DNA from: a virus
DNA length: 21,014 nucleotides
Direction: 5' to 3' (one strand)
IMG/VR virus record: IMGVR_UViG_3300043410_000927
Coordinates: 1-21,014 of that record
Under the pieces are notes generated by a model. The model was not told the DNA's origin. It made no database searches and saw only the letters and a list, made by a program, of their open reading frames with translations. The translations under genes were made by a program, and so were the position numbers. The number at the start of each line of letters is the position of its first letter. The first letter of the stretch is position 1. Below, piece after piece: positions 1-20,930 of this stretch.

Positions 1-1083
1 CGCACCAAAACTTTTGTACCACGTGGTTACAAAGGTCGTGTGGATTTGGATGTAGGCGATCAAGACGAATACAGTGAAGTTATGCACACATTACAACGTG
101 CAGCCAAGCAAGCAGGTCAACATGTTGAATGTGGACTAAGTGGTAATAACATGAGCGTGTTCTCTAAGACCATGGGCACCGATGATCTAGATGCGTTTAT
201 TGATGATTCTTTAGAGCAAGGTTTGGCGGAAGTTAGCAATTTTAAACGCAACGAACTGCGCCATGAGTTAGCACACGAACGCAATAACATTCAAGTTGTT
301 ATTAATGGTAAGCCTTGGAAAGTGTTCCCGGGCCGTGGTTATGCTGATAGCCGCGAAGAATGGCAATTCCTACAAAGCATGAAGACTTGGGCAGATAAAA
401 AGTCTGCACAAACCGGTAAGAAGTGGTCTGTACACTTAACTGGTGCAAGCCCAACACTTGAAGAAAGTGATATTAGTGGCCTATTGGCTGCTGCAAGTCT
501 TAATAAGGCATTTATCATTACCGCTGAACTAGCAGAAGGTGGCACAAAACGTTTCCGTGTTAAAGCACAAAGCGCCAAAGTTGCTGTTGAGAAGTTTAAA
601 CAACATGCTAGCATGGCTAAAGTAATTGACGTTAAAGAAGTACCGTTTAACGAACACATTGTTAAAGTTAGCGGCGGATACGAACTAAAGAGCAAACACG
701 GTAATAAGAATCTAGGCAAGTATCCTACCAAAGCTGGCGCAGAAAAGCGTGAGCGTCAAGTACAATACTTCAAGCACATGGGCGAAGACACCAATGACCA
801 AGAACAACTAAGTGAATTAAGTAACGAACTATTGGGCCGTTACAAGAAAGCATCTGGCATTTCTGCACGTGACTTAGATAAAGCTGGTAAGTACAAGCAA
901 GCAGATAAACGTTTTCATGGTATTGTTCAAGCTACTAAGAAAGAGCTTGACAACGATATGAAGAAGTACCAGAAAGATGAAGACATTATGCAAACTGCCG
1001 GCACAGATTCTACAAGTCCAATCCATGAGGACGTGGAAGATATGCTAGCTAGCATGAAACGAGCAGGATACGATATCAAATGA
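1..1083 (+). CDS. Conserved phage protein of unknown function, 5' end outside window
   Basis: The frame is open from base 1, so the gene very probably begins upstream. A GTG at 40 is the first possible start inside the window but has no ribosome binding site. The visible protein (about 360 residues) is charged and lysine-rich. It seems modular: an acidic N-terminal part, a segment around residues 80-135 (counted from the GTG) containing VINGKPWKVFPGRG and KWSVHLTGASPT, and a C-terminal segment (about 205-255) with GGYELKSKHGNKNLGKYPT followed by AEKREREVQYF-like residues (here AEKRERQVQYFKH). I recall similar 'nGK.LG.y.tkagAekRereVQyFKH' tails in many phage proteins of unknown role. The last 90 residues look like a charged helix. 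Its stop overlaps the Dps start by four bases (ATGA), so the two are probably translationally coupled. Function is unknown. Confidence 0.7.
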   Translation, partial: RTKTFVPRGYKGRVDLDVGDQDEYSEVMHTLQRAAKQAGQHVECGLSGNNMSVFSKTMGTDDLDAFIDDSLEQGLAEVSNFKRNELRHELAHERNNIQVVINGKPWKVFPGRGYADSREEWQFLQSMKTWADKKSAQTGKKWSVHLTGASPTLEESDISGLLAAASLNKAFIITAELAEGGTKRFRVKAQSAKVAVEKFKQHASMAKVIDVKEVPFNEHIVKVSGGYELKSKHGNKNLGKYPTKAGAEKRERQVQYFKHMGEDTNDQEQLSELSNELLGRYKKASGISARDLDKAGKYKQADKRFHGIVQATKKELDNDMKKYQKDEDIMQTAGTDSTSPIHEDVEDMLASMKRAGYDIK

Positions 1084-1511
1084 ATTTAGCAGAAGCAGCA
1101 AAAGTAGCATTCGCTAGTGAATTTAGTTTTTACTTAAAGGCCCACAACTTCCACTGGAACGTAGAGGGCCCGGTATTCCTACAATACCATGATCTATTTG
1201 GTAAAATCTACGAAGAAGTGTACGGCAGTATTGATGACTTTGCTGAAAAGATTCGTTCCATTGGCAGTTACATGCCAGGATCATATACTCGCTTTAGTAT
1301 GTTAAGTCAAATTGACGACACAGTTGATGTGTTACCTGTTGATCAAATGGTATCAACACTACACGAAGATAATGAAAAGATGCTTGTTACTCTAAAGATG
1401 GCATACGATTATGCTGAACAAGCAGGCGAGCATGGTTTTTCAAATTTCCTAGCTGAACGCATGGATGCACACCGCAAACACGGTTGGATGCTACGTGCCA
1501 GCTTAAAGTAA
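1080..1511 (+). CDS. dps: Dps-type ferritin-like protein (DNA protection / ferroxidase)
   Basis: Dps proteins form dodecameric shells that bind DNA and oxidise Fe(II) with peroxide, protecting DNA. The signature AHNFHWNVEGP (residues 21-31) is followed by FLQYHDLFGKIYEEVYGSIDDFAEKIR. The four ferroxidase ligands are seen as H25, H37, D52 and E56. Their spacings of 12, 15 and 4 match those of the classic E. coli Dps site (H31, H43, D58, E62 in the numbering I remember), so the iron site looks intact. At 143 residues it is shorter than typical cellular Dps (about 160-170), mainly because it lacks the N-terminal Lys/Arg tail that E. coli Dps uses for DNA binding. The C-terminal helix carries HRKHGWMLRA. 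The start overlaps the upstream stop (ATGA). Dps genes are uncommon in phages. Roles could be protecting phage DNA, or iron handling during infection. Confidence 0.85.
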   Translation: MNLAEAAKVAFASEFSFYLKAHNFHWNVEGPVFLQYHDLFGKIYEEVYGSIDDFAEKIRSIGSYMPGSYTRFSMLSQIDDTVDVLPVDQMVSTLHEDNEKMLVTLKMAYDYAEQAGEHGFSNFLAERMDAHRKHGWMLRASLK

Positions 1512-1635: not shown

Positions 1636-2181
1636 ATGAATTTCACTTGGGCATTAGTCACCACCTCTAAAAAATTAGTATTTGCGGATTCTGAGTATCG
1701 CAAATTAAAGATTATACAGTTGCTAATGTCCAGCTCAACGTTGTTTGATGTAGTTGCATGGCGTGATAATGTAGTTATTCAGCCCGAACAACTTGAGCTA
1801 CATCATAAGGTGGCATTTGTCAAATCAATATTTGACTCTGAAGAAGCAAACATCGCAAACTTATCAATTATACGTAATAACGACGGTCTCAAAGACACAT
1901 TAAAGTCGGTTAGAGAATTCTACACGTTAATTCACCCTAAAGACACAATTGTTCCTGACTTAGTGGACCAAGAACTAACAGAACTCGACGGATGGATGGG
2001 TGCTGTGCCGCAGCACAAATCGTATATCTTCCAAGCACTCCACAAGTTAGACTATCTACAAGACTTAGATACCATTAAGCAAGAATTTCGGGACACAACC
2101 AAGAATCCCCCTCACGACGATTACTATGTGTATGAACAACTTAATCATGCACTTATGACCTTTTTAAACTCAACTTCATGA
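1636..2181 (+). CDS. Hypothetical protein, probable leaderless transcript
   Basis: I do not recognise this 181-residue protein. It is soluble-looking, probably mostly helical, moderately acidic, and has no signal peptide, membrane segment or metal-binding motif. The ATG at 1636 is the natural start: an in-frame TGA sits at 1618-1620 and the next methionine is about 30 codons later. There is no Shine-Dalgarno sequence, and the -10 box of the promoter ends only six bases before the start codon, so translation probably starts from a leaderless mRNA or inefficiently. It shares an ATGA overlap with the following PP-loop gene, so the two form one transcription unit and may act together. Confidence 0.7.
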   Translation: MNFTWALVTTSKKLVFADSEYRKLKIIQLLMSSSTLFDVVAWRDNVVIQPEQLELHHKVAFVKSIFDSEEANIANLSIIRNNDGLKDTLKSVREFYTLIHPKDTIVPDLVDQELTELDGWMGAVPQHKSYIFQALHKLDYLQDLDTIKQEFRDTTKNPPHDDYYVYEQLNHALMTFLNSTS

Positions 2182-3356
2182 ATTACGAAGACATTTTACA
2201 AAATAGTAGGGTCATAAACGTAAGAAACGTACCCATTAATAATAGATTTGGACGGTTTTGGAACATTACCCGATTTGCTGTACCTGCAGTCACAGATTTA
2301 AAAGCTCGCACTGGGCGTTTTAATACTCCGTGGAGTACATCTGTAGATCCAATGTTTGCAATGCCAACGTTACGGGTTATTCCCGATAAGCTAAGTGATA
2401 TTATGGACGAACGTGCCATTGAACTTAACAACATCGCAAAGCAAACAAACAGAAAAATTATGATTATGTGGAGTGGTGGTATTGATAGCACCGCTGTACT
2501 AACTGCATTTCTTAAAAATTTATCGCCACAAGACTTAGATAACATTACTATTGTTCTTAGTGGTGAGTGTATTATCGAAAACCCTGTATTCTTTGAAAAA
2601 TACATTTACAAGAAACTAAAATGCATATCGTATCTAGAATATTGTATTAATAGTAATACTTTAGATACCTGTATTAACCTTAACGGCGATCCTGCAGATG
2701 CGCTATTTGGGCCAAGTTTTTCTATGTATAGATCTTATATAACCGAAGGTATACATTTAAAGCCTTTTAGGTTTAATACTAGGTTAATCACTGAACCTAT
2801 ATATAGATACGGCGAGTTATCAATTAACAAATATGCATGTCACGGGTTTCAGACTTGGTACGTGCAAAAAATCACAAAGAACTTACTCGAAGTTAACCCC
2901 GACGGGGTGGAAACTATCTCTGATTGGTGGTGGTGGCACTACATGAACTTCAAATGGGAGTTTAGTATCTGGAGATCGTTGCTTCGTCGTAAAGCCGGTG
3001 CCGCAGAAACTGAAAGACTTACTCGAGAACAATTAGAGTTCTTTGTGGCTAACACATTCTATGCAACAGAACGTTTCCAATTGTGGAGTTATAGTAACCT
3101 GCGTAATCATATTCGCGGTACCGACATAACATCGCACAAACGAGACATCAAAGAATACATCCATAACTTTGATGGTAATGACTCGTACTTGCAGCAAAAA
3201 ACAAAAGTTACGTCTATACCAATTTACGACCATAGCTATTATTATGAAGTGCGTAAACCATTCTTGATCGGTAACGACTGGTACGGGTATCATGATAACG
3301 AGCATCCAGAACTAGTCGAACTATGTAGACAGAAACTTGAAGATTTTAAAGGTTGA
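2178..3356 (+). CDS. PP-loop ATP-pyrophosphatase domain protein, asparagine-synthase-like
   Basis: Residues 99-104 read SGGIDS after a hydrophobic strand (KIMIMW), the PP-loop that binds the pyrophosphate of ATP in N-type ATP pyrophosphatases (asparagine synthase, QueC, GMP synthase, TilS). Residues 170-178 (GDPADALFG) resemble the 'GdgaDElFgG' motif of asparagine synthase C-terminal domains, which favours that branch. There is no N-terminal glutaminase domain with Cys at position 2, so ammonia or another amine would have to be supplied separately. A Trp-rich stretch (SDWWWWHYMNFKWEF) lies around residue 250. The C-terminal zinc-binding Cys cluster of QueC is missing, so I do not call it QueC. 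Such enzymes adenylate a carboxylate and then amidate it; the substrate here is unknown. The start overlaps the previous stop (ATGA) with no clear Shine-Dalgarno sequence, suggesting coupled translation. Confidence 0.7.
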   Translation: MNYEDILQNSRVINVRNVPINNRFGRFWNITRFAVPAVTDLKARTGRFNTPWSTSVDPMFAMPTLRVIPDKLSDIMDERAIELNNIAKQTNRKIMIMWSGGIDSTAVLTAFLKNLSPQDLDNITIVLSGECIIENPVFFEKYIYKKLKCISYLEYCINSNTLDTCINLNGDPADALFGPSFSMYRSYITEGIHLKPFRFNTRLITEPIYRYGELSINKYACHGFQTWYVQKITKNLLEVNPDGVETISDWWWWHYMNFKWEFSIWRSLLRRKAGAAETERLTREQLEFFVANTFYATERFQLWSYSNLRNHIRGTDITSHKRDIKEYIHNFDGNDSYLQQKTKVTSIPIYDHSYYYEVRKPFLIGNDWYGYHDNEHPELVELCRQKLEDFKG

Positions 3357-3401: not shown

Positions 3402-3677
3402 ATGACTGATCAATCTGATTACAACCGCAGCTTTAACGGCGATGCTAAAATTAAACTTACTCAACTTATCAACGAAGGCATGCGTGTTATGCAAGAAGTT
3501 GAAGACCTTAACGCAGGACTAAGCGACACTGTTAAAGCAATCGCCGAAGAACTCGAGATTAAACCGGGTGTTCTAAAGAAGGCAATTCGCATTGCACATA
3601 AAGCCAAGCTCGGCGAAAACAATCGCGACAACGACGAGCTAAACACTATTCTTGAAACTGTTGGCAAAACTCTGTAA
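3402..3677 (+). CDS. dsbA: Small DsbA-like dsDNA-binding protein (T4-type)
   Basis: This 91-residue, highly helical and charged protein resembles in size and layout the T4 DsbA family, small dsDNA-binding proteins linked to late transcription. The second half (AIAEELEIKPGVLKKAIRIA, then a Lys-rich stretch and DNDELNTILETVGK) looks like the conserved C-terminal helical part, with a possible helix-turn-helix-like pair around residues 47-68. The gene has its own strong promoter and an AGGAG ribosome site six bases before the ATG, consistent with a protein needed in quantity. The assignment rests on remembered family pattern and context rather than an alignment, so the symbol is tentative. An alternative is a generic small nucleoid-type phage protein. 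Confidence 0.55.
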   Translation: MTDQSDYNRSFNGDAKIKLTQLINEGMRVMQEVEDLNAGLSDTVKAIAEELEIKPGVLKKAIRIAHKAKLGENNRDNDELNTILETVGKTL

Positions 3678-3964
3678 TGAATGACCATTTACTAGGTATA
3701 TGGGATTGGATCCGCAATGACTTCAAAAGTAATAGAATTCGTTTTTGTTTTGAGGTCGTTGCTTGGATTGTTAGTATTGGTTGCGCTCTCACTATGGCTA
3801 TCACCGTTCCAGAGCCACCTCTCAAGTATCTTTACATTCCTTGGGTTGCCAGTACTGCTATATACTCTGGGTGTGCTTATAGTAGGGGTTCCTTTGGGAT
3901 GTTGGCTAATTACCTTCTTTTGTTCATTATTGATTTCACGGCGCTAGTGCGTTGGTGGCTGTAA
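3677..3964 (+). CDS. Small integral membrane protein, unknown function
   Basis: The 95-residue protein starts with a short amphipathic segment containing WDWIRNDFKSNRIRF. Three hydrophobic segments follow at about residues 25-44, 49-68 and 73-94, so it should sit in the host inner membrane. I recall similar 'sIGCALTMA.TVP.PPL' proteins in aquatic T4-like phages, all uncharacterised. The ATG overlaps the dsbA-like stop (TAATG), so it is probably translated by re-initiation. Holins can have this size and three segments, but nothing specific supports that role and no lysis genes are nearby. Confidence 0.7.
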   Translation: MNDHLLGIWDWIRNDFKSNRIRFCFEVVAWIVSIGCALTMAITVPEPPLKYLYIPWVASTAIYSGCAYSRGSFGMLANYLLLFIIDFTALVRWWL

Positions 3965-4563
3965 TGTATTGTTACGTTAAGGATAAGTTTGCCTACATTA
4001 AAGTACCCAAGAACGGGTGCTCTACATATGGTGCGTTCTTTGAGTCTAATGGCTGGACAAAGACTGACTTATTCTTTAACGACCTAGATATAGATAATAC
4101 TATATTCTTTGGACACATTAGTGAGCCTAATCAAAGACACACAAAAGGACTTGCACAGTATCTAATCAATACCAACCAAGTCCCGTTAATTAATCATGAA
4201 TTGTCTCATTTACTTGTAAGCGGAGTTTTTGATGAACACTGCTACAGTATACATATGATGATTCCACACTTAGTTAACAAGGTGCATTGGATTCCACTAG
4301 ACTATAAGCATCGTCACTTCGATGGTACGTTTCTAACAAATCGTTTCTTTAAGCAACACAATCTTAACCTACAATACGATGATACTAGTAGACTTAATGT
4401 TGCCGACGGAAAGAAACAGTTTATATACAAACGCATCAATGAGTTAAAATTAAAGTACGATCAAGATTACCAGAAGTTAGTAAAAAACTTTTTAGAACCC
4501 GATATTAAGTTGCACTCTGATGCAATGGACAAGTATAATCACATTGACTTAGACGCTAACTAA
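3964..4563 (+). CDS. Sulfotransferase-like protein with degenerate PAPS site
   Basis: I chose the ATG at 3964, which overlaps the upstream stop (TAATG), over a GTG at 3952; this gives 199 residues. Residues 10-21 (AYIKVPKNGCST) match the 5'-phosphosulfate-binding loop of sulfotransferase-family proteins ('f.hIPKngsSt'). Where the family has its 3'-phosphate motif (RDPxeRwxSG), this protein has HISEPNQRHTKG (51-62): the leading Arg is replaced but the following pattern is kept. It is recognisably related to the better-preserved protein at 9170-9805. The degenerate site suggests an altered donor or a lost transferase activity. Possible targets include host surface sugars, phage proteins or modified DNA, but none is indicated. 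The gene closes the operon that begins with the dsbA-like gene. Confidence 0.55.
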   Translation: MYCYVKDKFAYIKVPKNGCSTYGAFFESNGWTKTDLFFNDLDIDNTIFFGHISEPNQRHTKGLAQYLINTNQVPLINHELSHLLVSGVFDEHCYSIHMMIPHLVNKVHWIPLDYKHRHFDGTFLTNRFFKQHNLNLQYDDTSRLNVADGKKQFIYKRINELKLKYDQDYQKLVKNFLEPDIKLHSDAMDKYNHIDLDAN

Positions 4564-4638: not shown

Positions 4639-4791
4639 ATGAGTAATCGAAATTATTTCGAAGATGAAGATCTCATCGAAATTTGCGAGCAGTGCGAAGA
4701 CTGCGTTCACCCAAATGGCTGCATTAGAGCCTGTGCTATTAAAACCCATGTACAAGAAGATGTAGCAAGGATCAGAGGTGAGGCCCAATGA
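4639..4791 (+). CDS. Small Cys-rich protein, possible metal binder
   Basis: The start is the ATG at 4639, six bases after AGGAG (4629-4633); the upstream GTG at 4603 lies inside the structured leader and has no ribosome site. The product has only 50 residues and is acidic, with five cysteines spaced C-x2-C-x2-C-x5-C-x3-C (CEQCEDCVHPNGCIRAC, residues 16-32), a likely Zn or Fe-S knuckle. It ends four bases inside the polymerase gene (ATGA), so its translation probably feeds into that of gp43. This placement suggests a role in replication or in control of polymerase synthesis, but no family was recognised. Confidence 0.6.
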   Translation: MSNRNYFEDEDLIEICEQCEDCVHPNGCIRACAIKTHVQEDVARIRGEAQ

Positions 4792-7448
4792 GTTATATCG
4801 ATGCTCTCTACGATAGAGCAAAAGATCGTATCCACGTTGTTGAACGTGTTAATGGTCAAAGGGTGTATCGCGAATACCCAGCAGATTACATTTTTTACTA
4901 CGATGACCCCCGCGGCAAGTTCCGCACAATTTACGGCACACCTGTAAATCGTTTTAGTACCCGAAACAATAAAGAATATCAAAAAGAACTTCGCATTAAC
5001 AGCGGCAAGCGGTTGTGGGAAAGTGATATCAATCCAATCTTCCGTTGCCTAGAGACTAACTACTTAGGTGCAACATCTCCTAAACTACAAACAGCGTTTT
5101 GGGACATTGAGGTCGACTTTGATCCAGTTAAAGGTTATAGTCGACCCGAAGATCCGTTTAATCCCATTACTGCCATATCAGTTTACTTAGACTGGCTAGA
5201 TAAGTTAGTTACGTTAGTGGTTCCGCCAAAGACATACTCGTGGGAGTCAGCGCAAGAGATTTGTGATCAGTATGAAAACTGTTTCTTGTTTGAGCGTGAA
5301 GAAGACATGCTCAATACATTCCTTGACTTAATTGATGACGCAGACATTTTAACTGGTTGGAACTCAGAAGGTTTTGATATTCCGTATACTGTTATGCGTA
5401 TTATCAAAGTACTGAGCCGCGATGATACTCGTAGATTCTGTTTATGGGGACAACAACCAAAGCAACGTGAGTTTGAACGTTTTGGTGCAAAGAACATCAC
5501 ATTCGATTTGATTGGTCGTGTTCATATGGATTACATGCAACTATACCGCAAGTACACATATGAAGAACGCCATAGTTATAGTCTAGACGCCATTGGCGAA
5601 TATGAACTTGATGAGCGTAAAGTTGCTTACGAAGGCACACTGGATCAACTTTACAACAAGGACTTTCCAAAGTTCATCGACTATAACAGACAAGATACCA
5701 TGCTGATTGCTAAACTAGACAAGAAACTACGTTTCCTAGACTTAGCAAACGAACTTGCTCACGATAATACTGTGTTGTTACAAACCACAATGGGTGCGGT
5801 TGCTGTAACAGAGCAAGCTATCATTAATGAAGCACATGCACGTGGTATGATTGTACCAAATCGAAAGGGTAGAGATGATTCAGAGAACACACAAGCCGCA
5901 GGTGCCTATGTTGCTTATCCCAAAAAAGGGATGCACGAATATATCGGAGCAATTGACATCAACTCGCTCTATCCCTCGGCTATTCGTGCCCTTAACATGG
6001 GGCCGGAAACAATTGTTGGACAACTCAGACCGGTAATGACCGACCAATACATCGCAGACAAAATGGCAACAGGTTGCAGTTTTGCTGACGCATGGGAAAA
6101 TATGTTTGGTACACTCGAATACCAAGCGGTAATGGAAGGACAACTTGGTACTGAAATTGTCATTGACTGGGAAGATGGTAACTGTACTACCCATACCGCA
6201 GCAGAAGTGTGGAGTTTAGTGTTTGAAGGTAACCAACCATGGACATTAAGTGCCAATGGTACGTTATTTAAGTACAACATGAAGGGTATTGTCCCTGGAC
6301 TTTTAGAAAGATGGTATGCAGAACGAAAAGAAATGCAAGCTAAAAAGAAGACCGCAGAAACTGAGGAAGACAAAGCGTTCTGGGACAAACGGCAACTCGT
6401 TAAAAAGATTAACCTCAATTCGCTCTACGGGGCGATCCTTAACCCAGGGTGCCGCTTCTTCGATCAGCGTATTGGCCAGAGCACTACGCTTACTGGCCGG
6501 ATCATCGCAAAGCACATGGACGCATTCGTTAACGAAGCAATTACTGGGTCATACGACCACGTTGGTGAATCGATTATCTACGGTGACACAGACTCAGTAT
6601 ACTTTAGTGCGTGGCCGACGATCAAAAAAGAAGTAGAAGCAGGAAACATGGAATGGAACAAAGACATTTGTCTCCAAGTCTACGACAGTATTGCTGATCA
6701 AGTAAACGAATCGTTCCCGGGCTTTATGGAACGTGCATGTCACTGTCCACGTGAGATGGGTGCCATTATTAAAGGTGGTCGTGAACTAGTTGCAGAGAAG
6801 GGCTTGTTCATTAAGAAGAAGCGTTATGCTGTATTAATTTATGACCTAGAAAACAAACGACTTGACGTAGATGGCAAGCCAGGTAAAGTTAAAGCTATGG
6901 GCCTTGACCTTAAGCGCAGTGACACTCCGAAGTTTGTACAAGACTTCTTAAGTGAAATTCTATTAGATGTACTAACCGGTAGCCAACGAGAAGAAATCAT
7001 CGAGAAGGTACGCGAGTTTAAGTATCGATTCAAAGATTTACCTCCATGGGAGAAAGGCACACCCAAGCGTGTTAACAACTTGACCAAGTACACAGCCGCA
7101 GAAGTTGCACAAGGTAAAGCTAACATGCCCGGACACGTTCGTGCTGCTATGAACTGGAATAACTTAAAGCGCATGATGGGCGACAACTACTCAACATCAA
7201 TTGTTGACGGTATGAAGACTATTGTATGTAAGCTAAGGGATAATCCACTAGGTTATACTAGCGTTGGTTATCCAACAGACTTATCTAAGATTCCGCAATG
7301 GTTTAAGGACTTGCCATTTGACCAAGACTTAATGGAAGATACTATCGTTAGCCAAAAGGTTGAGAACTTATTAGGCGTGCTAGAGTGGGGTATTCAAGAT
7401 TCCACTGACATCAGATCAACATTTGATAGTTTGTTTACATTCGAGTAA
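4788..7448 (+). CDS. 43: DNA polymerase, T4 gp43-type family B
   Basis: This is the replicative DNA polymerase with 3'-5' proofreading. At 886 residues it is close to T4 gp43 (898). Exonuclease motifs: Exo I FWDIEV (D106, E108), Exo II GWNSEGFDIPY (from about 191, D197) and Exo III YNRQD (Y299, D303). Polymerase motifs: motif A DINSLYPSAIRALNM from D390, motif B KKINLNSLYG (539-548) and motif C YGDTDS with D600 and D602. All catalytic acids are present, so it should be active for synthesis and proofreading. The extreme C-terminus (DSLFTFE) is acidic/hydrophobic, like the clamp-binding tail of gp43. It overlaps the small Cys-rich gene by four bases; the sliding clamp gene follows after one methyltransferase gene. 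Unlike T4, no regA or clamp-loader genes lie between them. No intein, split or frameshift is seen. Confidence 0.97.
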   Translation: MSYIDALYDRAKDRIHVVERVNGQRVYREYPADYIFYYDDPRGKFRTIYGTPVNRFSTRNNKEYQKELRINSGKRLWESDINPIFRCLETNYLGATSPKLQTAFWDIEVDFDPVKGYSRPEDPFNPITAISVYLDWLDKLVTLVVPPKTYSWESAQEICDQYENCFLFEREEDMLNTFLDLIDDADILTGWNSEGFDIPYTVMRIIKVLSRDDTRRFCLWGQQPKQREFERFGAKNITFDLIGRVHMDYMQLYRKYTYEERHSYSLDAIGEYELDERKVAYEGTLDQLYNKDFPKFIDYNRQDTMLIAKLDKKLRFLDLANELAHDNTVLLQTTMGAVAVTEQAIINEAHARGMIVPNRKGRDDSENTQAAGAYVAYPKKGMHEYIGAIDINSLYPSAIRALNMGPETIVGQLRPVMTDQYIADKMATGCSFADAWENMFGTLEYQAVMEGQLGTEIVIDWEDGNCTTHTAAEVWSLVFEGNQPWTLSANGTLFKYNMKGIVPGLLERWYAERKEMQAKKKTAETEEDKAFWDKRQLVKKINLNSLYGAILNPGCRFFDQRIGQSTTLTGRIIAKHMDAFVNEAITGSYDHVGESIIYGDTDSVYFSAWPTIKKEVEAGNMEWNKDICLQVYDSIADQVNESFPGFMERACHCPREMGAIIKGGRELVAEKGLFIKKKRYAVLIYDLENKRLDVDGKPGKVKAMGLDLKRSDTPKFVQDFLSEILLDVLTGSQREEIIEKVREFKYRFKDLPPWEKGTPKRVNNLTKYTAAEVAQGKANMPGHVRAAMNWNNLKRMMGDNYSTSIVDGMKTIVCKLRDNPLGYTSVGYPTDLSKIPQWFKDLPFDQDLMEDTIVSQKVENLLGVLEWGIQDSTDIRSTFDSLFTFE

Positions 7449-8438: not shown

Positions 8439-9170
8439 ATGCAAGATTATTTAAAAGACATCGTACAACACACATTTAACTTAGGCAATATCGATTTAGT
8501 TAAAATTACCGGCGACGGCAACGAAACTCGTATCACTGCACTAGCCGAAGACAAAAGTGTTGTAGTTGATGCTAAGTTTAAAAACCCAGTACCAGAGTTT
8601 GTTGGTACGTTTGGTATGCCAAACTTAGGCAAGCTAAACACTATTCTAAACATTCCAGAATACAAAGAAGATGCTAACCTAAGCATTATCAAGCAAACCC
8701 GTAACGGCGAAGAAGTCCCATCTGGTATCCACTTTGAAAACAAAGCTGGCGACTTTAAGAACGACTATCGCTTTATGGCAACTGAGATTGTTAACGAGAA
8801 GTTGAAGAATCAAAAGATGCGCCCAGTAAAGTGGAACGTGGACTTTGCACCAACTGCACAAAACATTCAACGTTTAAAGTTCCAAGCTAGTGCTAACAGC
8901 GAAGAAACTACATTTACTGCTAAAACAGAAAACGGCGACTTGAAGTTCTACTTTGGCGACTTTAGTAGCCATGCAGGTAACTTTGTGTTCCAAGGTGGTG
9001 TTAGTGGAGACTTGTCTCGTAGCTGGTCTTGGCCTGTTGCTGCATTTATTGGTATCCTAAGTCTAAGCGGCGACAAGACTGTTAAAATTAGTGACGAAGG
9101 CGCTGCAATGATTACTGTTGACAGTGGCTTAGCTGAATTCAACTATATTCTACCAGCACAAACTAAGTAA
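8439..9170 (+). CDS. 45: Sliding clamp, T4 gp45-type processivity factor
   Basis: The 243-residue protein matches gp45 clamps in length (T4: 228) and pattern. The segment FVGTFGMPNLGKLNTILNIPE (about 54-74) corresponds to the first clamp domain's 'gi.dl..flgilnl' region. Alternating short strands and repeated lysines are expected for a toroidal clamp that encircles DNA, and the C-terminus ends in a strand with FNYILPAQTK. Gp45 tethers gp43 to DNA and in T4 also activates late transcription with gp33 and gp55. It has its own promoter and a good ribosome site (TAGGAG), allowing high expression. The stop overlaps the next start (TAATG). Confidence 0.88.
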   Translation: MQDYLKDIVQHTFNLGNIDLVKITGDGNETRITALAEDKSVVVDAKFKNPVPEFVGTFGMPNLGKLNTILNIPEYKEDANLSIIKQTRNGEEVPSGIHFENKAGDFKNDYRFMATEIVNEKLKNQKMRPVKWNVDFAPTAQNIQRLKFQASANSEETTFTAKTENGDLKFYFGDFSSHAGNFVFQGGVSGDLSRSWSWPVAAFIGILSLSGDKTVKISDEGAAMITVDSGLAEFNYILPAQTK

Positions 9171-9805
9171 TGCTTGAGCACTTAGTTGTTAGAGGATACA
9201 CCCCTCAAAGCGGGATTATATCCCCAGAGGGTGTATTCTGTTTGCACATTCCTAAAAATGCAAGTACGTTCGTAACAAACTTTCTTGTACATAATGGTTG
9301 GCGTCATAGCAGCGCCAACGATCCAGAAATTAAAAAGCAAATAGTAGTATTACGTGACCCACTTGAACGTTGGGTAAGCGGCTTTGCCACTTATGCTGCA
9401 TCATGGATATTAGGACCTAGTTATGGCAGTGACAACTTTAGTGATGACTTTAATGACTTGAGCGCAAGATTAATTTTCGATCAAGTAATATTTGATGACC
9501 ATACTACTCCTCAAGTACAATTCATCGAACAACTTAACAAAAGTATACCAACAACATACTTTGCACTCAATAACGATCTTGTGTCAAATCTAAAACATTT
9601 TTTAGGTACTGAGTTAGAATGGCGTGAAGATTTGAATGCCAATATAACCGAAAACAATTACGATACTAAGCAAGTAGCTAAAAGGATAAAGTACACGCTA
9701 AGTCAGAATCCTACATACACAGCTAAAGTTATTGAATGTTATAAACAAGATTACGATTTTATAAAAAGTATAAATTTTTACGATTATTACAATGAGTCAA
9801 GATAA
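9170..9805 (+). CDS. Sulfotransferase-family protein
   Basis: Both nucleotide-binding motifs of PAPS-dependent sulfotransferases are visible: the 5'-phosphosulfate loop FCLHIPKNAST (23-33) and the 3'-phosphate motif VVLRDPLERWVSGFATY (59-75). The protein has 211 residues, at the short end for this family, as usual for phage versions. It is a distant paralogue of the protein at 3964-4563 but keeps the Arg of the RDP motif, so it is the better candidate for an active enzyme. The substrate is unknown. It starts in the stop of the clamp gene (TAATG) without its own Shine-Dalgarno sequence and overlaps dpdA by 14 bases, so the clamp, this enzyme and DpdA are probably on one message. Confidence 0.7.
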   Translation: MLEHLVVRGYTPQSGIISPEGVFCLHIPKNASTFVTNFLVHNGWRHSSANDPEIKKQIVVLRDPLERWVSGFATYAASWILGPSYGSDNFSDDFNDLSARLIFDQVIFDDHTTPQVQFIEQLNKSIPTTYFALNNDLVSNLKHFLGTELEWREDLNANITENNYDTKQVAKRIKYTLSQNPTYTAKVIECYKQDYDFIKSINFYDYYNESR

Positions 9806-11339
9806 CTTAACTGCAAAACAATTAGACTACGCAGTGTACTTGCCAGCCATTAGCGGCTTCTATGGTACCTTTGTAGGCAAACAACGAAACGAACACTATG
9901 TTGATCCCGCAAGATTTCCTAAGGGTCTTACTGACATGGAGCAACTTAATTGGCTCAACTCGAATAAGGGCTTTTTCCCCTATAAGTGGAGTCTTTATAG
10001 TGGAGGACATGCGAACCTTGATCTTAGTAAACAAGATTGGTCTGAGGATATGGTACGAAATCGGGAAGCCGGATCATTTATGCTTGGCGACTCGGGTGGT
10101 TTCCAGATTGCTAAAGGTCTCTGGGAAGGTGACTGGAAAGCAAACTCCGGATGCCCAAAAGCACAAAGCAAGCGTGAGTCTATTTTAAAATGGCTAGACG
10201 GTATTGCTGACTATGGCATGATTCTCGATATTCCAACTTGGGTCGTTAAGGATCCGTTTGCATCCAGTAAGTGTAAAATTACCACACACCAAGAAGCAGT
10301 TGATGCCACAAAGTTCAACAACGAATACTTTATGGCTAACCGCAAAGGTGTTGCCAATGGTGGTGCTAAGTTTCTAAACGTGCTACAAGGTGCTAACCAC
10401 ACAGAAGCCGAAGACTGGTATCAAATTATGAAGGATTATTGCGATCCTGTGAAATACCCAAATACACACTTTAACGGATGGGCAATGGGGGGTCAGAACA
10501 TGTGTGACGTACACTTAATCTTAAAACGATTAGTGACATTACGACATGATAACTTGTTACAAGAAGGTGTACACGATTGGATGCACTTCTTGGGCACAAG
10601 TAAACTAGAGTGGGCAGTGTTGCTCACAGTTATACAACGAGCAGTGAGAAAATATGTCAACCCTAATTTTACTATTTCTTTTGATTGTGCTAGTCCGTTT
10701 TTGGCGACTGCGAATGGGCAAGTATATTTCGAAAACGTCTTCCCGCACAACGGCAAATGGAGCTACCGAATGGCCCCAAGCGCAGACGACAAAAAGTACG
10801 CAACAGACACAAGACCCTGGGCACAAGGGGTAGTAGCAGATGGCTTTTACAACAATTGGGATAACTCCCCAATTAGTGATATGCTAACTATGAAAGATAT
10901 CTGTATCTACAAACCAGGCGACCTAAATAAGAATGGTAAGGAAGGTAAAACTTCTTGGGATAGTTTTAGCTATGCACTATTAATGGGCCATAATGTTTAT
11001 CAGCACATTACTGCGGTACAAGAAGCTAATAGACGTTTTGATGCAGGCGAACATCCTGCTATGATGCAATACTCTGCACCAAGTGCAGAATACTTCGAGG
11101 ATATCATTGAAGCTATTTTTGCTACACCAGATAAGCAAACAGCTTTGGATATTATCGAACAATACGATCGTTACTGGATGGAAATTGTAGGTACACGTGG
11201 GTTCAAAGGAAAGAAAACTAAGAACGCTAACACAATGTACAACGCACTTTTCTCCCACGATGACGAAGACGAAACTGTAGCAGATGATGATACAGAATTT
11301 AACAACAACGCTCTAGATGATTTGGAGAAATCAGTATGA
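9792..11339 (+). CDS. dpdA: DpdA-type DNA guanine transglycosylase (TGT family)
   Basis: DpdA exchanges guanine in DNA for a 7-deazaguanine base, using the fold of tRNA-guanine transglycosylase (TGT). The hallmarks are in order: LGDSGGFQ with D100 (TGT 'DSGGFQ'), DYGMILDIPTW with D146, GWAMGG (229-234, TGT 'GyaiGG'), HFLGTSKLEW (265-274, TGT 'yLmGvGtpe') and ISFDCASPF with D298, the expected nucleophile in the TGT 'mFDCv.P' position. H400-N401 falls where TGT has its conserved HN, but the three zinc Cys of bacterial TGT are not all visible; zinc-site loss is a feature I associate with the DpdA branch. It has 515 residues, longer than TGT (about 375). FolE at 17417 and QueD at 20391 support a DNA-modification role rather than a tRNA role. 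The subfamily (DpdA1, 2 or 3) cannot be decided by eye. Confidence 0.85.
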   Translation: MSQDNLTAKQLDYAVYLPAISGFYGTFVGKQRNEHYVDPARFPKGLTDMEQLNWLNSNKGFFPYKWSLYSGGHANLDLSKQDWSEDMVRNREAGSFMLGDSGGFQIAKGLWEGDWKANSGCPKAQSKRESILKWLDGIADYGMILDIPTWVVKDPFASSKCKITTHQEAVDATKFNNEYFMANRKGVANGGAKFLNVLQGANHTEAEDWYQIMKDYCDPVKYPNTHFNGWAMGGQNMCDVHLILKRLVTLRHDNLLQEGVHDWMHFLGTSKLEWAVLLTVIQRAVRKYVNPNFTISFDCASPFLATANGQVYFENVFPHNGKWSYRMAPSADDKKYATDTRPWAQGVVADGFYNNWDNSPISDMLTMKDICIYKPGDLNKNGKEGKTSWDSFSYALLMGHNVYQHITAVQEANRRFDAGEHPAMMQYSAPSAEYFEDIIEAIFATPDKQTALDIIEQYDRYWMEIVGTRGFKGKKTKNANTMYNALFSHDDEDETVADDDTEFNNNALDDLEKSV

Positions 11340-17416: not shown

Positions 17417-18118
17417 ATGACAGACAACAGTTTAAATTTATCACAAGTTATTCGTAAACGCCTAACAGACGCAGACAAGCGTTATTGGGCAGGTGACAAC
17501 ATTTCCGAGTTTATTACAGACAAAGAAAAAGATATGTTAGTAGATGAGCTAACAACTAAATTTGAAGGCGTGCTTGACAGTTTGATTATCGACCGTCACA
17601 CAGATCCTAACTCTATGGATACTGCACGCCGTTTAGCAAAGATGTACGTATATGAAATTATGTCTGGTAGGTATGAGGAGTCACCGAACCCAACGGCTTT
17701 CCCAAATGATACAGAAGGTGCGTACAACGGTATGTTGGTCGTTCGTAGTGAGCTCAAGAGTATGTGTTCACACCACCATCAACCTGTTTCGGGTGTGGCT
17801 TACATTGGAATTATTGCTGGTCCCAAGCTCATTGGACTTAGTAAGTACTCGCGTATTGCCCAGTGGTGCGCTCGACGTGGCACGTTACAGGAAGAGCTTT
17901 GCATGGACATCGCTAAAGAGATTATGTTTGCAACTGGATCCGAGAACGTCGGCGTTTACATTCAGGCCACACATGGATGCTGCGAAAACCGTGGAATTAT
18001 GGCGCACTCGAGCTTAACACAAACCACAGTTTTGCATGGTTCTTTTAAAGAAGATGCAGGCGTGAAAAAAGAGTTCTTTGATAACATTAAGTTGCAACAA
18101 GACTTTGCTCCACGCTAA
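17417..18118 (+). CDS. folE: GTP cyclohydrolase I (FolE)
   Basis: FolE converts GTP to dihydroneopterin triphosphate, the first step of both folate and 7-deazaguanine synthesis. The zinc site is visible: C117-S-H119-H120 in MCSHHHQPVSGVAYIGI, and C188/C189 in THGCCENRGI, matching the family's 'CeHH..pf.G.ahVgyiP' and 'H.Cm..RGv'. LIGLSKYSRIAQWCARRGTLQE (138-159) corresponds to 'viGLSKl.Rive.fa.R.q.QE'. It has 233 residues, with an N-terminal extension of about 60 that is also common in cellular FolE. It starts two bases after the aminotransferase-like stop. With QueD (20391) and DpdA (9792) in the same window, supply of 7-deazaguanine precursor for DNA is the likely purpose, rather than folate. 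Confidence 0.9.
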   Translation: MTDNSLNLSQVIRKRLTDADKRYWAGDNISEFITDKEKDMLVDELTTKFEGVLDSLIIDRHTDPNSMDTARRLAKMYVYEIMSGRYEESPNPTAFPNDTEGAYNGMLVVRSELKSMCSHHHQPVSGVAYIGIIAGPKLIGLSKYSRIAQWCARRGTLQEELCMDIAKEIMFATGSENVGVYIQATHGCCENRGIMAHSSLTQTTVLHGSFKEDAGVKKEFFDNIKLQQDFAPR

Positions 18119-18138
18119 GATGTAGTATTGGCATTATG

Positions 18139-18147
18139 TGCTATAAT
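18139..18147 (+). promoter_or_regulatory. Extended -10 promoter before the exported hydrolase
   Basis: TG-C-TATAAT (18139-18147) is a perfect extended -10 element in the 47-base gap after folE. No good -35 box lies 16-18 bases upstream, as is often the case for extended -10 promoters. The distance from the -10 box to the ATG at 18166 is 18 bases with AAAGGA between, the same compact layout as other promoters in this window. Confidence 0.55.
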
Positions 18148-18165
18148 GCAAACAAAGGAAAATAC

Positions 18166-18930
18166 ATGATAAAATCTATCTTAGTAACACTTTTGTTTGC
18201 ATTTTCTGTTTCTGCACATGCAGACCAGTTGCTGAGTGTGGCACCAGACGGTGCTGGATTTTTCACAGCTAATACTAATGTATTACTTTGGGAGAACCCG
18301 AAGTCTACTGCAACTGTAGTACATTTGCCTGGCGGCACTGGATCGTTTAACGTCACACAACTGTGGCCCCGAGAAAAAGTACATAGCTTCGGTTCCATAT
18401 TAACGTTGTTACTAGCAAGCGGTAATGTGTCTTCTGCATACATTGATAGCCCTTACTCATTGGGCGGTAACGACATTAGTGCTAGACGTAGCGAAGATCA
18501 CTTAGCAAGGGTAGCAAAAGCATTGCAGGCAATTCATAGCAAAACAAATAACCCAATTTGGCTATTTGGTCACAGCAATGGTGCAATCAGTGCTATGGAA
18601 ATGTATTCATACCTAAGCAAAACTAATGATCAACACATTCTAGGTGGCATTATATTATCTAGCTCACGCAACGAACTAATAGTTCCTGCAACTATGAATA
18701 TACCAGTTTTGTTTATGCATCATCGCAATGATACTTGCGTAAACACAATGTACGCCGATGCCCGCCAACGTTACGAAGAAGTTAAAGCTGTAAACAAAAA
18801 TAGAACAGAGTTTGCAACTATCACTTCAGCATTTACACCCAATACTCGCCCATGTTTTTCAGGCGCACACATGTACGAGAACAACTACGCAGAGATTGCA
18901 CAAATTATTGAAAAGTTTACAACCCAATGA
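18166..18930 (+). CDS. Exported alpha/beta-hydrolase (esterase-like)
   Basis: The ATG at 18166, six bases after AAAGGA, is the start. A start at 18136 would add ten residues in front of the signal peptide and would lie within the promoter. Residues 1-19 (MIKSILVTLLFAFSVSAHA) are a clear Sec signal peptide with an A-H-A cleavage site, so the mature protein should be periplasmic or beyond. The catalytic triad is plausible: S137 in the nucleophile elbow FGHSNGA, D189 in HHRNDT and H235 in GAHMYE. An oxyanion region, HLPGGTGSF, lies at 53-61. C191 and C230 could form a disulfide. It has 254 residues. The substrate is unknown: host envelope ester, polysaccharide or lipid are options. It is transcribed from its own extended -10 promoter and overlaps the next gene by four bases. 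Confidence 0.78.
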   Translation: MIKSILVTLLFAFSVSAHADQLLSVAPDGAGFFTANTNVLLWENPKSTATVVHLPGGTGSFNVTQLWPREKVHSFGSILTLLLASGNVSSAYIDSPYSLGGNDISARRSEDHLARVAKALQAIHSKTNNPIWLFGHSNGAISAMEMYSYLSKTNDQHILGGIILSSSRNELIVPATMNIPVLFMHHRNDTCVNTMYADARQRYEEVKAVNKNRTEFATITSAFTPNTRPCFSGAHMYENNYAEIAQIIEKFTTQ

Positions 18931-19247
18931 TAGCACTACCCCCAGGAGTTACCGTTAACTATTTTATTGCCATTGAAATTGATCGCTTAACAGACGAGAT
19001 GATTGAATGGTTTCAAATGATTGGCGGAGAAGTTAGTTTCAAACGTGACTGGGACCGTAAAGGTCGCGAAACTGAAAAGCCGTTAGTAAAATACGGAAAA
19101 GGCAAGCAAAGTTATTATCGGCAAGACGGGAGTGGTGGCACTAGACTTAACTTCCACGGCGACGATGCTAGCACTGCTAGCGTGTTCTTAATTAAATTTA
19201 ACGAGCATGTACAACAACATAACATGGGACAAGACTTCTATGTCTAA
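18927..19247 (+). CDS. Conserved hypothetical protein
   Basis: The 106-residue protein begins in the hydrolase stop (ATGA). It reads as a mixed alpha/beta domain: an N-terminal strand VNYFIAIEI, a helix LTDEMIEWFQMIGG, basic segments RDWDRKGRETEK and KYGKGKQSYYRQDGSGG, and a final strand/helix ASVFLIKFNEHV. I recognise no family. It overlaps the following phosphoribosyltransferase gene by eight bases. Confidence 0.6.
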   Translation: MIALPPGVTVNYFIAIEIDRLTDEMIEWFQMIGGEVSFKRDWDRKGRETEKPLVKYGKGKQSYYRQDGSGGTRLNFHGDDASTASVFLIKFNEHVQQHNMGQDFYV

Positions 19248-19764
19248 AAAATATTACACAAATGAGAATGTAACGCACTACATTCAACAAATTCTGCAAG
19301 GGCTTGCACACGATAACTGGCGACCAGATTACATTGTGGGGCTAACTCGTGGCGGACTAATTCCTGCAACTATGATTAGTCATTACTTGGGTGCGCCAAT
19401 GCATACATTAAATGTAAGCCTACGCGACAATAGATTGGGTCCAGAATCTAACTTGTGGATGGCCGAAGATGCATTTGGGTATGAAGACGGCGAAAGTCAT
19501 ATTAGCAAACGTTACAACATTCTAATCGTAGACGACATTAACGACCAAGGCACGACTTTAAAGTGGATCAAGAGTGATTGGCAATCGGGTTGTTTGCCAA
19601 ATAATCCTGCTTGGCAGGATATCTGGGGTGCTAATGTTCGTACCGCAGTTTTGATTAACAACGAAGCTAGCGAATTCAAAACTGTTGATTATGTTGGCCA
19701 CACAATCAACAAAGAACAAGTTCCAGAATGGTGTGTATTTCCTTGGGAAAACTGGTGGGAGTAA
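19240..19764 (+). CDS. Type I phosphoribosyltransferase (purine salvage type)
   Basis: PRTases join a base to PRPP, or act as regulators. The PRPP loop ILIVDDINDQGTT (94-106) is well preserved. An early strand and helix, PDYIVGLTRGGLIPATMISHYLG (29-51), match the 'd.ivgv.rGG...a..la..l' region of hypoxanthine/xanthine-guanine enzymes. The C-terminus is rich in aromatic residues (EWCVFPWENWWE), like the hood of xanthine-guanine PRTases. The ATG at 19240 (174 residues) is preferred; an upstream in-frame ATG at 19207 lies well inside the previous gene. With FolE consuming GTP, a purine-salvage enzyme would help the GTP supply, but this link is inference. Confidence 0.75.
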   Translation: MSKKYYTNENVTHYIQQILQGLAHDNWRPDYIVGLTRGGLIPATMISHYLGAPMHTLNVSLRDNRLGPESNLWMAEDAFGYEDGESHISKRYNILIVDDINDQGTTLKWIKSDWQSGCLPNNPAWQDIWGANVRTAVLINNEASEFKTVDYVGHTINKEQVPEWCVFPWENWWE

Positions 19765-20390: not shown

Positions 20391-20930
20391 ATGTCTATAG
20401 AAGATACAATCAAGAAATATAAGTTAGAAACTCGCCCAGCTATTAGCTACAAATACACAAGTACAAAAGAATATCACAATGCGTTTCCAGTTGCATACCG
20501 TCAGTGGCGTGCAGACTCGCATTGTAATCTAATCCACGGTTATGCATTTAGCATGAAGTTTTATTTTGGAACTGATGACCTAGACGTGCGTAACTGGGCT
20601 GCTGATTACGGTGGACTCAAAGAACTAAAGAAGTTATTAGAGGATATGTTCGACCACACTTTGATTGTAGCCGAAGATGATCCCGAAATGGAAACATTCA
20701 AACTGCTACAAGAAAAGAACATGGCAAAAATTGTTGTGTTACCAAAACTAGGCTGCGAAGGCCTAAGCGATATGCTTTACAAGTATATCAACGGAGTTTA
20801 CATTCCCGACATGTGGGGTGAAGGTGAAGCAAAAAGACTTTGGTGTTATCGTGTAGAAGTTCGTGAAACACAAAGCAACATGGCATTCCGTGAAGGACAC
20901 AGAGAATGGAACGAGGACCTGCTATCCTAA
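20391..20930 (+). CDS. queD: QueD: 6-carboxy-5,6,7,8-tetrahydropterin synthase (PTPS family)
   Basis: QueD converts dihydroneopterin triphosphate to 6-carboxy-tetrahydropterin, the second step to 7-deazaguanines. Visible motifs: SHCNLIHGY (43-51) with the catalytic C45, followed by the strand FSMKFYF; DYGGLKELKKLLEDMFDHT (72-90), matching 'DF..LK....LDH' with D88-H89; CEGLSDMLYKYI (122-133) in place of 'PT.EnlA..i'; and VEVRET (155-160), the family's final strand with its Glu. Two of the three zinc histidines of E. coli QueD seem replaced: AYR (35-37) stands where 'AHR' is expected, and HGY replaces HGH. I recall the same RQWRA.SHC..lHGYA form in other T4-like phages. The 179-residue protein is longer than E. 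coli QueD (about 120), with insertions around 90-120. It has a good AGGAG site. Confidence 0.8.
   Translation: MSIEDTIKKYKLETRPAISYKYTSTKEYHNAFPVAYRQWRADSHCNLIHGYAFSMKFYFGTDDLDVRNWAADYGGLKELKKLLEDMFDHTLIVAEDDPEMETFKLLQEKNMAKIVVLPKLGCEGLSDMLYKYINGVYIPDMWGEGEAKRLWCYRVEVRETQSNMAFREGHREWNEDLLS

Follow-up and report, generated by a model that had tools for sequence, protein, structure and literature searches.

A basic N-terminal tail is a feature of the DNA-binding subtype of Dps proteins (the E. coli type) and is not a defining feature of the Dps family as a whole. According to the title of PDB entry 1o9r, the Dps of A. tumefaciens is a family member that protects DNA without binding to it. Dps-family genes have also been reported in phages, including gut Gratiaviridae (PMC8008677) and Lactobacillus phages (PMC6669764). 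For T4, a capsid targeting sequence and the L/I-X-E motif of the protease gp21 have been described (PMC9026906). Here, we analyse a window of 21,014 nucleotides (the whole stretch of DNA under study) from an IMG/VR virus record. Our favoured reading, which we hold with only slightly more confidence than doubt, is that the window encodes a Dps of an old phage lineage that acts around or inside the assembling head, beside a modular cargo gene that is recombined at a short linker.

The phage of the window is large and T4-like. Its DNA polymerase (4788..7448, plus strand) belongs to a family that lies downstream of Dps in 50 of 81 loci; the closest counterparts are the polymerases of jumbo phages such as Sinorhizobium phage Phosso (51%) and Agrobacterium phage Atu_ph07 (48%). 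A relative's capsid protein (in L094) is likewise most similar to that of Phosso (76%). The nine phage records with a Dps match (E 1e-5) include no cultured relative from the polymerase or capsid protein listings. The block downstream of Dps is concerned with replication, not with the head. A 91-aa protein (3402..3677, plus strand), whose family lies near Dps in 53 of 81 loci, has a match to PHROG 12534 (unknown) and a weak one to PHROG 639 (transcriptional regulator). Elsewhere in the window, the genes at 17417-18118, 20391-20930, 9792-11339 and 2178-3356 constitute a set for possible 7-deazaguanine DNA modification, including GTP cyclohydrolase I (PF01227) and a QueD-like protein (PF01242, PHROG 2389). 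A 515-aa protein of this set lacks a family match and contains DSGGFQ, presumably as in tRNA-guanine transglycosylases, and another contains SGGIDST, which we take to resemble PP-loop enzymes. The proteins encoded at 3952-4563, for which Pfam and PHROG scans gave no match, and at 9170-9805 carry (I)(K/H)(V/I)PKN motifs near their starts and by eye recall sulfotransferase-like folds. Additionally, a phosphoribosyltransferase (PF00156, 46.8 bits) is encoded at 19207-19764. The product of 18136-18930 contains GHSNG and by eye looks secreted and alpha/beta-hydrolase-like, NCBIfam giving only a weak unrelated match.

The open reading frame at 1080..1511 (plus strand, ATG start, 143 aa) is, as judged from its sequence and predicted structure, a true Dps, showing the fold of the family and a complete set of its ferroxidase residues. 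It matches the Pfam family Ferritin (69.7 bits) and PHROG 3636 (99.7 bits), and its best PDB match is PA0962 of Pseudomonas aeruginosa (8ff9, E 7e-26), with which its ferroxidase residues align. A single-chain AlphaFold model built from a 41-row alignment has a mean pLDDT of 95.5 and presents helices at residues 3-27, 33-48, 51-60, 87-114 and 118-142, i.e. the four-helix ferritin-like bundle with the short BC-loop helix; compared with solved structures, it reaches Z scores of 19.1-21.4 over the 50 best listed entries, nearly all of which are Dps proteins. The initial annotation had proposed that the phage encodes a Dps and that the ferroxidase site is intact, and both points are borne out: the frame lies in a virus record, the Ferritin match, the model and the invariant residues agree, and the translation places H25, H37, D52 and E56 at the claimed positions with spacings of 12, 15 and 4. 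All four are conserved without exception in the phage group, in 81 of 81 sequences (the window plus the best 80 of at least 595 encoding stretches in IMG/VR, among them L002, whose Dps protein is identical to that of the window) and likewise in 48 of 48 distinct sequences of a second phage Dps group. The MNLAEA start of the window protein holds an LxE|A string at residues 3-6 that is common only to close relatives. A second ferritin-family match was seen in four of the 16 Dps phage records searched (L420, L421, L422 and L416, from records G011, G012, G015 and G014, respectively), and these proteins resemble rubrerythrins by eye.

This Dps belongs to an old phage lineage. A scan of GTDB with the protein returned 38 loci, of which the two best (45% and 44%) are L295 and L296, phage contigs that were binned into MAGs; the other 36 show 34-41% identity, save for one 37-residue fragment at 49%. 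The tree comprised 64 rows (38 viral, 23 cellular and three from other phages), omitting 15 cellular loci (the fragments L306 and L331 and 13 near-duplicates) as well as viral near-duplicates. In this tree, the 38 viral rows together with contigs L295 and L296 form one group with support of 99/93, and a strict grouping of the 38 viral rows alone reaches only 66/64; six rows sit on long branches, including the three other phage rows and both contigs. With L295 Dps as query, no relatives were found in IMG/VR. A recent capture of dps from a host is rejected on this one GTDB scan, in which the best matches lie on phage contigs and the cellular ones show 34-41% identity. The transfer from a host that the initial annotation hoped to date by a tree finds no support in these identities or in the single group formed by the phage sequences. 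When the search was started from the polymerase (79 loci examined of the best 80 kept), Dps lay upstream in 12 of the 16 contigs that extend 9 kb or more in that direction and in 23 of the 30 that extend 5 kb or more. Over 61 loci, the distances of Dps and polymerase are only weakly correlated (r 0.29; none of 2000 permutations was as high), so that exchange between phages is likely as well.

The gene upstream of Dps is represented in the window by its 3' part only (1..1083, plus strand, frame open from base 1), its beginning lying outside. Its stop and the Dps start overlap in an ATGA (1080..1083, plus strand), the Dps ATG at 1080 overlapping the TGA that ends at 1083; the coupling suggested in the initial annotation thus stands as a possible translational coupling. 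The encoded fragment has no Pfam family, and its residues 256-328 match PHROG 26930 (unknown function, 40 bits). A stretch of 49 residues (646..792, plus strand) is 90% shared with the otherwise different upstream protein of L044. Genes at the same place in L004, L010, L011, L031 and L060 encode proteins of 925-1129 aa without any Pfam match above cut-off and with weak PHROG matches at most, and the two databases generally provide little information on linker-rich upstream proteins. The nearest complete homologues, in L004 and L011, begin with MNLYELDNS and MNLYDLSHP, which fit the targeting pattern in part only; used as query, the L011 protein found one cultured phage, through a 65-residue match. 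It is well supported that this cargo gene is modular and that phages exchange its modules at a short DNA element.

This element became apparent from relatives of the upstream protein, which repeat QGVAE, mostly followed by G. The 798 distinct proteins of Dps loci contain G[VMI][AE]E 118 times, whereas shuffling yields 20. Of 101 copies of the linker core in the Dps loci, spread over 48 of 81 loci, 100 are on the coding strand; the window copy (217..231, plus strand) is one mismatch from CAAGGTGTGGCGGAA and reads QGLAE. Allowing one mismatch, the linker is found in four of ten large records carrying Dps, at two to eight places each, and is absent from the other six, while the reversed control is found in none; with so few places, a genome-wide repeat is rejected. 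The site-bearing frames of two large records start with MRIKEIILESF, MTIKNFIQLVEQA and MRFKEIITELF, and at a one-mismatch site with MSANFERIA, which does not look like a targeting start. When site-bearing frames with their 5' end inside the contig are taken together, 24 of 82 have a targeting-type start, compared with one in a single shuffle. In two genes of L188, a linker site comes directly after the targeting-type start, where a processing site would be expected. The linker may also serve prohead protease processing, a role put forward as hypothetical because the putative site has V at P3, unlike the L/I-X-E motif described for T4 gp21 (PMC9026906).

Exchange at the linker was assessed from internal breakpoints of alignments with at least 90% identity among 200 records. 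Of 169 breakpoints, 59 fall within 3 nt of the element and 88 within 10 nt, with 1.1 and 1.9 expected; counting is per query, so that a single exchange may count more than once. Restricted to breakpoints inside site-bearing frames, the figures are 59 of 130 within 3 nt against 3.6 expected. Of the 200 records, 119 had been fetched because they bear the element; in the 81 not chosen for it, three of 27 breakpoints lie within 3 nt (0.1 expected) and seven within 10 nt (0.2). When module ends are defined by protein alignment, 36 of 342 lie within 2 aa where 12.9 would be expected, which is only moderately more, and the claim of exchange therefore rests on the DNA test. Individual pairs illustrate the pattern. 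The window and L002 are 99.9% identical over 6798 bp from base 215, with no match before; L013 and L014 diverge at the element after 8688 bp at 99.99%, with about 100 bp of L014 remaining beyond; and L042 is without an in-frame unit of 537 nt that in L036 is bounded by the element and a diverged copy. In our reading, head-cargo modules recombine at this linker, which may at the same time encode a protease site.

Several observations connect the surroundings of Dps with the virion head. Protein N-termini were searched for starts of the T4-like capsid-targeting type and compared with shuffled sequences. Upstream of Dps, such starts occur in 19 of 58 proteins at position -1 (0.4 in shuffles), 17 of 44 at -2 (0.5) and 14 of 96 at -3 to -5 (1.0); downstream, they occur in 12 of 128 at +1 and +2 (0.8) and 11 of 292 at +3 to +9 (2.7). 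The motif [LIVMF]-x-E follows the targeting start in 47 of 78 cases against 11 in a control stretch, a count inflated by the start pattern, which already demands hydrophobic residues there. Dps itself has a targeting start in none of 68 sequences (0.8 in shuffles), which speaks against packaging by the T4 targeting route. A T4-type protease and capsid protein were found in seven of 11 relatives' records, those of at least 198 kb, and neither was matched in the four shorter ones; by reading of the sequences, the relatives' capsid proteins have a likely pro-site such as YLAE|S or HLAE|A. ATAAATA is the core of T4 late promoters. It occurs within 120 nt upstream of Dps in 25 of 67 cases, versus 89 of 631 other frames (p 1e-5) and 3.7 in shuffles, and it is absent in the other 42, the window's own Dps among them. 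Words containing ATAAATA are also among the most enriched 8-mers upstream of open reading frames in L002-L081 (8- to 14-fold).

In more distant loci, Dps follows a major head protein gene (L296) or just precedes a head-tail adaptor gene (L295). Speaking against a head link, no head gene is annotated in the 8.4 kb shown of Synechococcus phage S-SRM01, the ferritin-like gene of Lactobacillus phages is near replication genes (PMC6669764), and targeting starts are also present at +1 and +2, on the replication side of Dps. The second phage Dps group was sampled by the best 80 of 153 loci, giving 48 distinct sequences, of which 15 lie in long fusions (at least 379 aa, some cut by contig ends). Pfam scans of ten fusions detected Ferritin in all; Peptidase_S78 passed the cut-off in six, stayed below it in one and gave no match in the other three. 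Of the 19 matches that a structure search of viral models (BFVD) listed at E 0.001 or better, three carry the name 'Prohead protease'. In our reading, a head-related role for Dps is, on balance, a little more probable than not. Where the initial annotation listed iron storage, DNA protection and virion packaging as roles, gene context and the Dps-prohead protease fusions elsewhere favour a connection with the virion head, and Dps may itself be packaged, although we only infer this. As further observations on the neighbourhood, proteins that by eye resemble membrane fatty-acid desaturases (HRxQAHR) are encoded near cargo or capsid genes in L416, L094 and L011 (6405-7133), and targeting-type starts are also found on enzymes, such as the protein at 3825-5984 of L013 with cytidylyltransferase-like, LysM and transglycosylase domains. 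The gene at -1 of L029, L041, L043, L053 and L058 also has a targeting-type start, and several of these contain GRFNPPHxGH, which we take to recall NMN adenylyltransferases.

In the mechanism that we favour, Dps would form a 12-mer, oxidise Fe(II) using peroxide and store the iron; lacking a DNA-binding tail, it would in this way do away with Fenton chemistry close to the phage DNA. The most likely place of action would be around or inside the assembling head, because Dps is encoded with head-cargo proteins, as seen in the gene overlap and in the late-promoter-like box of relatives; in other phages, the Dps domain is fused to the prohead protease. The modules of the upstream cargo gene would be swapped between phages at the short DNA element, which, by encoding G-V-A-E(G) in the likeness of a prohead protease site, could be exchange point and processing site at once. 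A more specific version, offered tentatively and with less confidence than doubt, has an evolvable, head-packaged polyprotein whose modules would be swapped at an element of about 15-20 bp that also encodes the prohead protease site by which each module is freed, and beside it a fixed Dps acting in or at the head as iron and peroxide sink for the packaged genome.

Alternatives to the DNA-level linker are of two kinds. The element might be conserved only as a protein motif, a protease site or flexible joint, as its single reading frame in nearly all copies and its position directly after the targeting-type starts in L188 would allow. Its spelling argues otherwise: QGVAE is written CAAGGTGTGGCGGAA in 43 of 58 copies, with 0.27% expected from codon usage, and in 35 of 47 copies with distinct flanks, whereas VAE without a preceding G is written GTGGCGGAA in three of 129 cases; moreover, the linker 17-mer occurs in at least 120 IMG/VR stretches against 26 for a synonymous spelling. 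Protein-only conservation is thus rejected on the codon test and the synonymous pattern, and we consider this explanation very improbable. It is also improbable, if a little less so, that the junctions are assembly artefacts at a short repeat without any real exchange. Every contig does come from metagenome assembly and the element is short and repeated within genes, but stretches bounded by elements at both ends recur across contigs (e.g. L118/L055 and L105/L179), the 537-nt unit of L036 is flanked by the element and a diverged copy rather than by an exact repeat, and a repeated element conserved in its DNA would be left unexplained.

For Dps, the alternatives concern where it acts. The initial annotation remarked on the lack of the DNA-binding N-terminal tail, which the translation confirms for the window and which extends throughout its phage group; its reading as a special feature is not supported, protection without binding being already known from A. 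tumefaciens. The window protein is acidic (pI 5.25, also the median over 81 sequences, range 4.8-7.2), and because the basic tail is absent as well, direct DNA binding by Dps appears unlikely. Compaction of phage or host DNA by Dps, with the lysine-rich upstream protein giving the contact, would draw on the basic character of the upstream fragment, yet it meets an acidic, tail-less Dps and a partner that is not conserved between phages, and we regard it as the most improbable of the explanations considered. Of the lysine-rich partner that had been proposed, the composition stands for the upstream fragment (11.4% lysine, pI 8.75). A single conserved partner is rejected, because widely different genes precede Dps in different phages, and modular head cargo is a better reading of the upstream protein than a subunit through which Dps would contact DNA. 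A more serious alternative, though still a doubtful one, is a cytoplasmic stress gene that shields the infected cell and its replicating DNA from iron and peroxide, unconnected to the head, in which case the head-gene neighbours and fusions of other phages would reflect separate histories. The position of Dps upstream of the polymerase, its lack of a targeting start, the second ferritin-family match in some records, the host protection proposed for gut phage Dps (PMC8008677) and a ferritin-like gene near replication genes in Lactobacillus phages (PMC6669764) are in its favour. Against it, Dps overlaps or adjoins cargo genes, a late-type box precedes it in 25 of 67 cases, and in other phages it adjoins head genes or is fused to the prohead protease.

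If Dps is tied to head assembly, some phages carry protection against iron and oxidants for their packaged DNA. The linker, if our reading is true, represents a built-in means of shuffling injected proteins that keeps the reading frame and the processing of the product, and its sequence provides a handle for finding such cargo genes across viromes. Whereas the Dps is of a known kind, a specialist would be surprised by the linker and by the modular cargo gene, and the DNA element may be new: the literature searched, mostly other than subscription papers and hence weak evidence of absence, yielded no mention of it or of Dps-prohead protease fusions.

Compared with known systems, the window Dps resembles cellular Dps proteins (PA0962, PDB 8ff9, and other solved structures) in fold (Z 19-21) and ferroxidase residues, whereas the phage group is separate in the tree and about 12 residues shorter before HxFHWN (median 22 versus 34). 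The record of Synechococcus phage S-SRM01 also holds a Dps-family gene, but its product is 31% identical and falls outside the tree group of the window. For the Dps of gut Gratiaviridae and Lactobacillus phages, the available portions of the reports mention neither a cargo polyprotein nor a linker (PMC8008677; PMC6669764). The internal proteins and Alt of T4, as far as described in the portions available (PMC9026906; PMC12373910), share with the genes near Dps a targeting-type start followed by an x-E motif; unlike them, the proteins found here are large and multi-module, with repeated GVAE sites and a linker conserved in its DNA. Polyvalent proteins of phages and plasmids are also multidomain and thought to be packaged and injected, but in the portion of the report available their processing is ascribed to internal domains and a repeated DNA-level linker goes unmentioned (PMC5512222). 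Finally, the Dps-prohead protease fusions of IMG/VR loci share with the window the Dps domain and all four ferroxidase residues; they carry an S78 protease on the Dps polypeptide itself, whereas the large relatives of the window encode a separate S77 protease.
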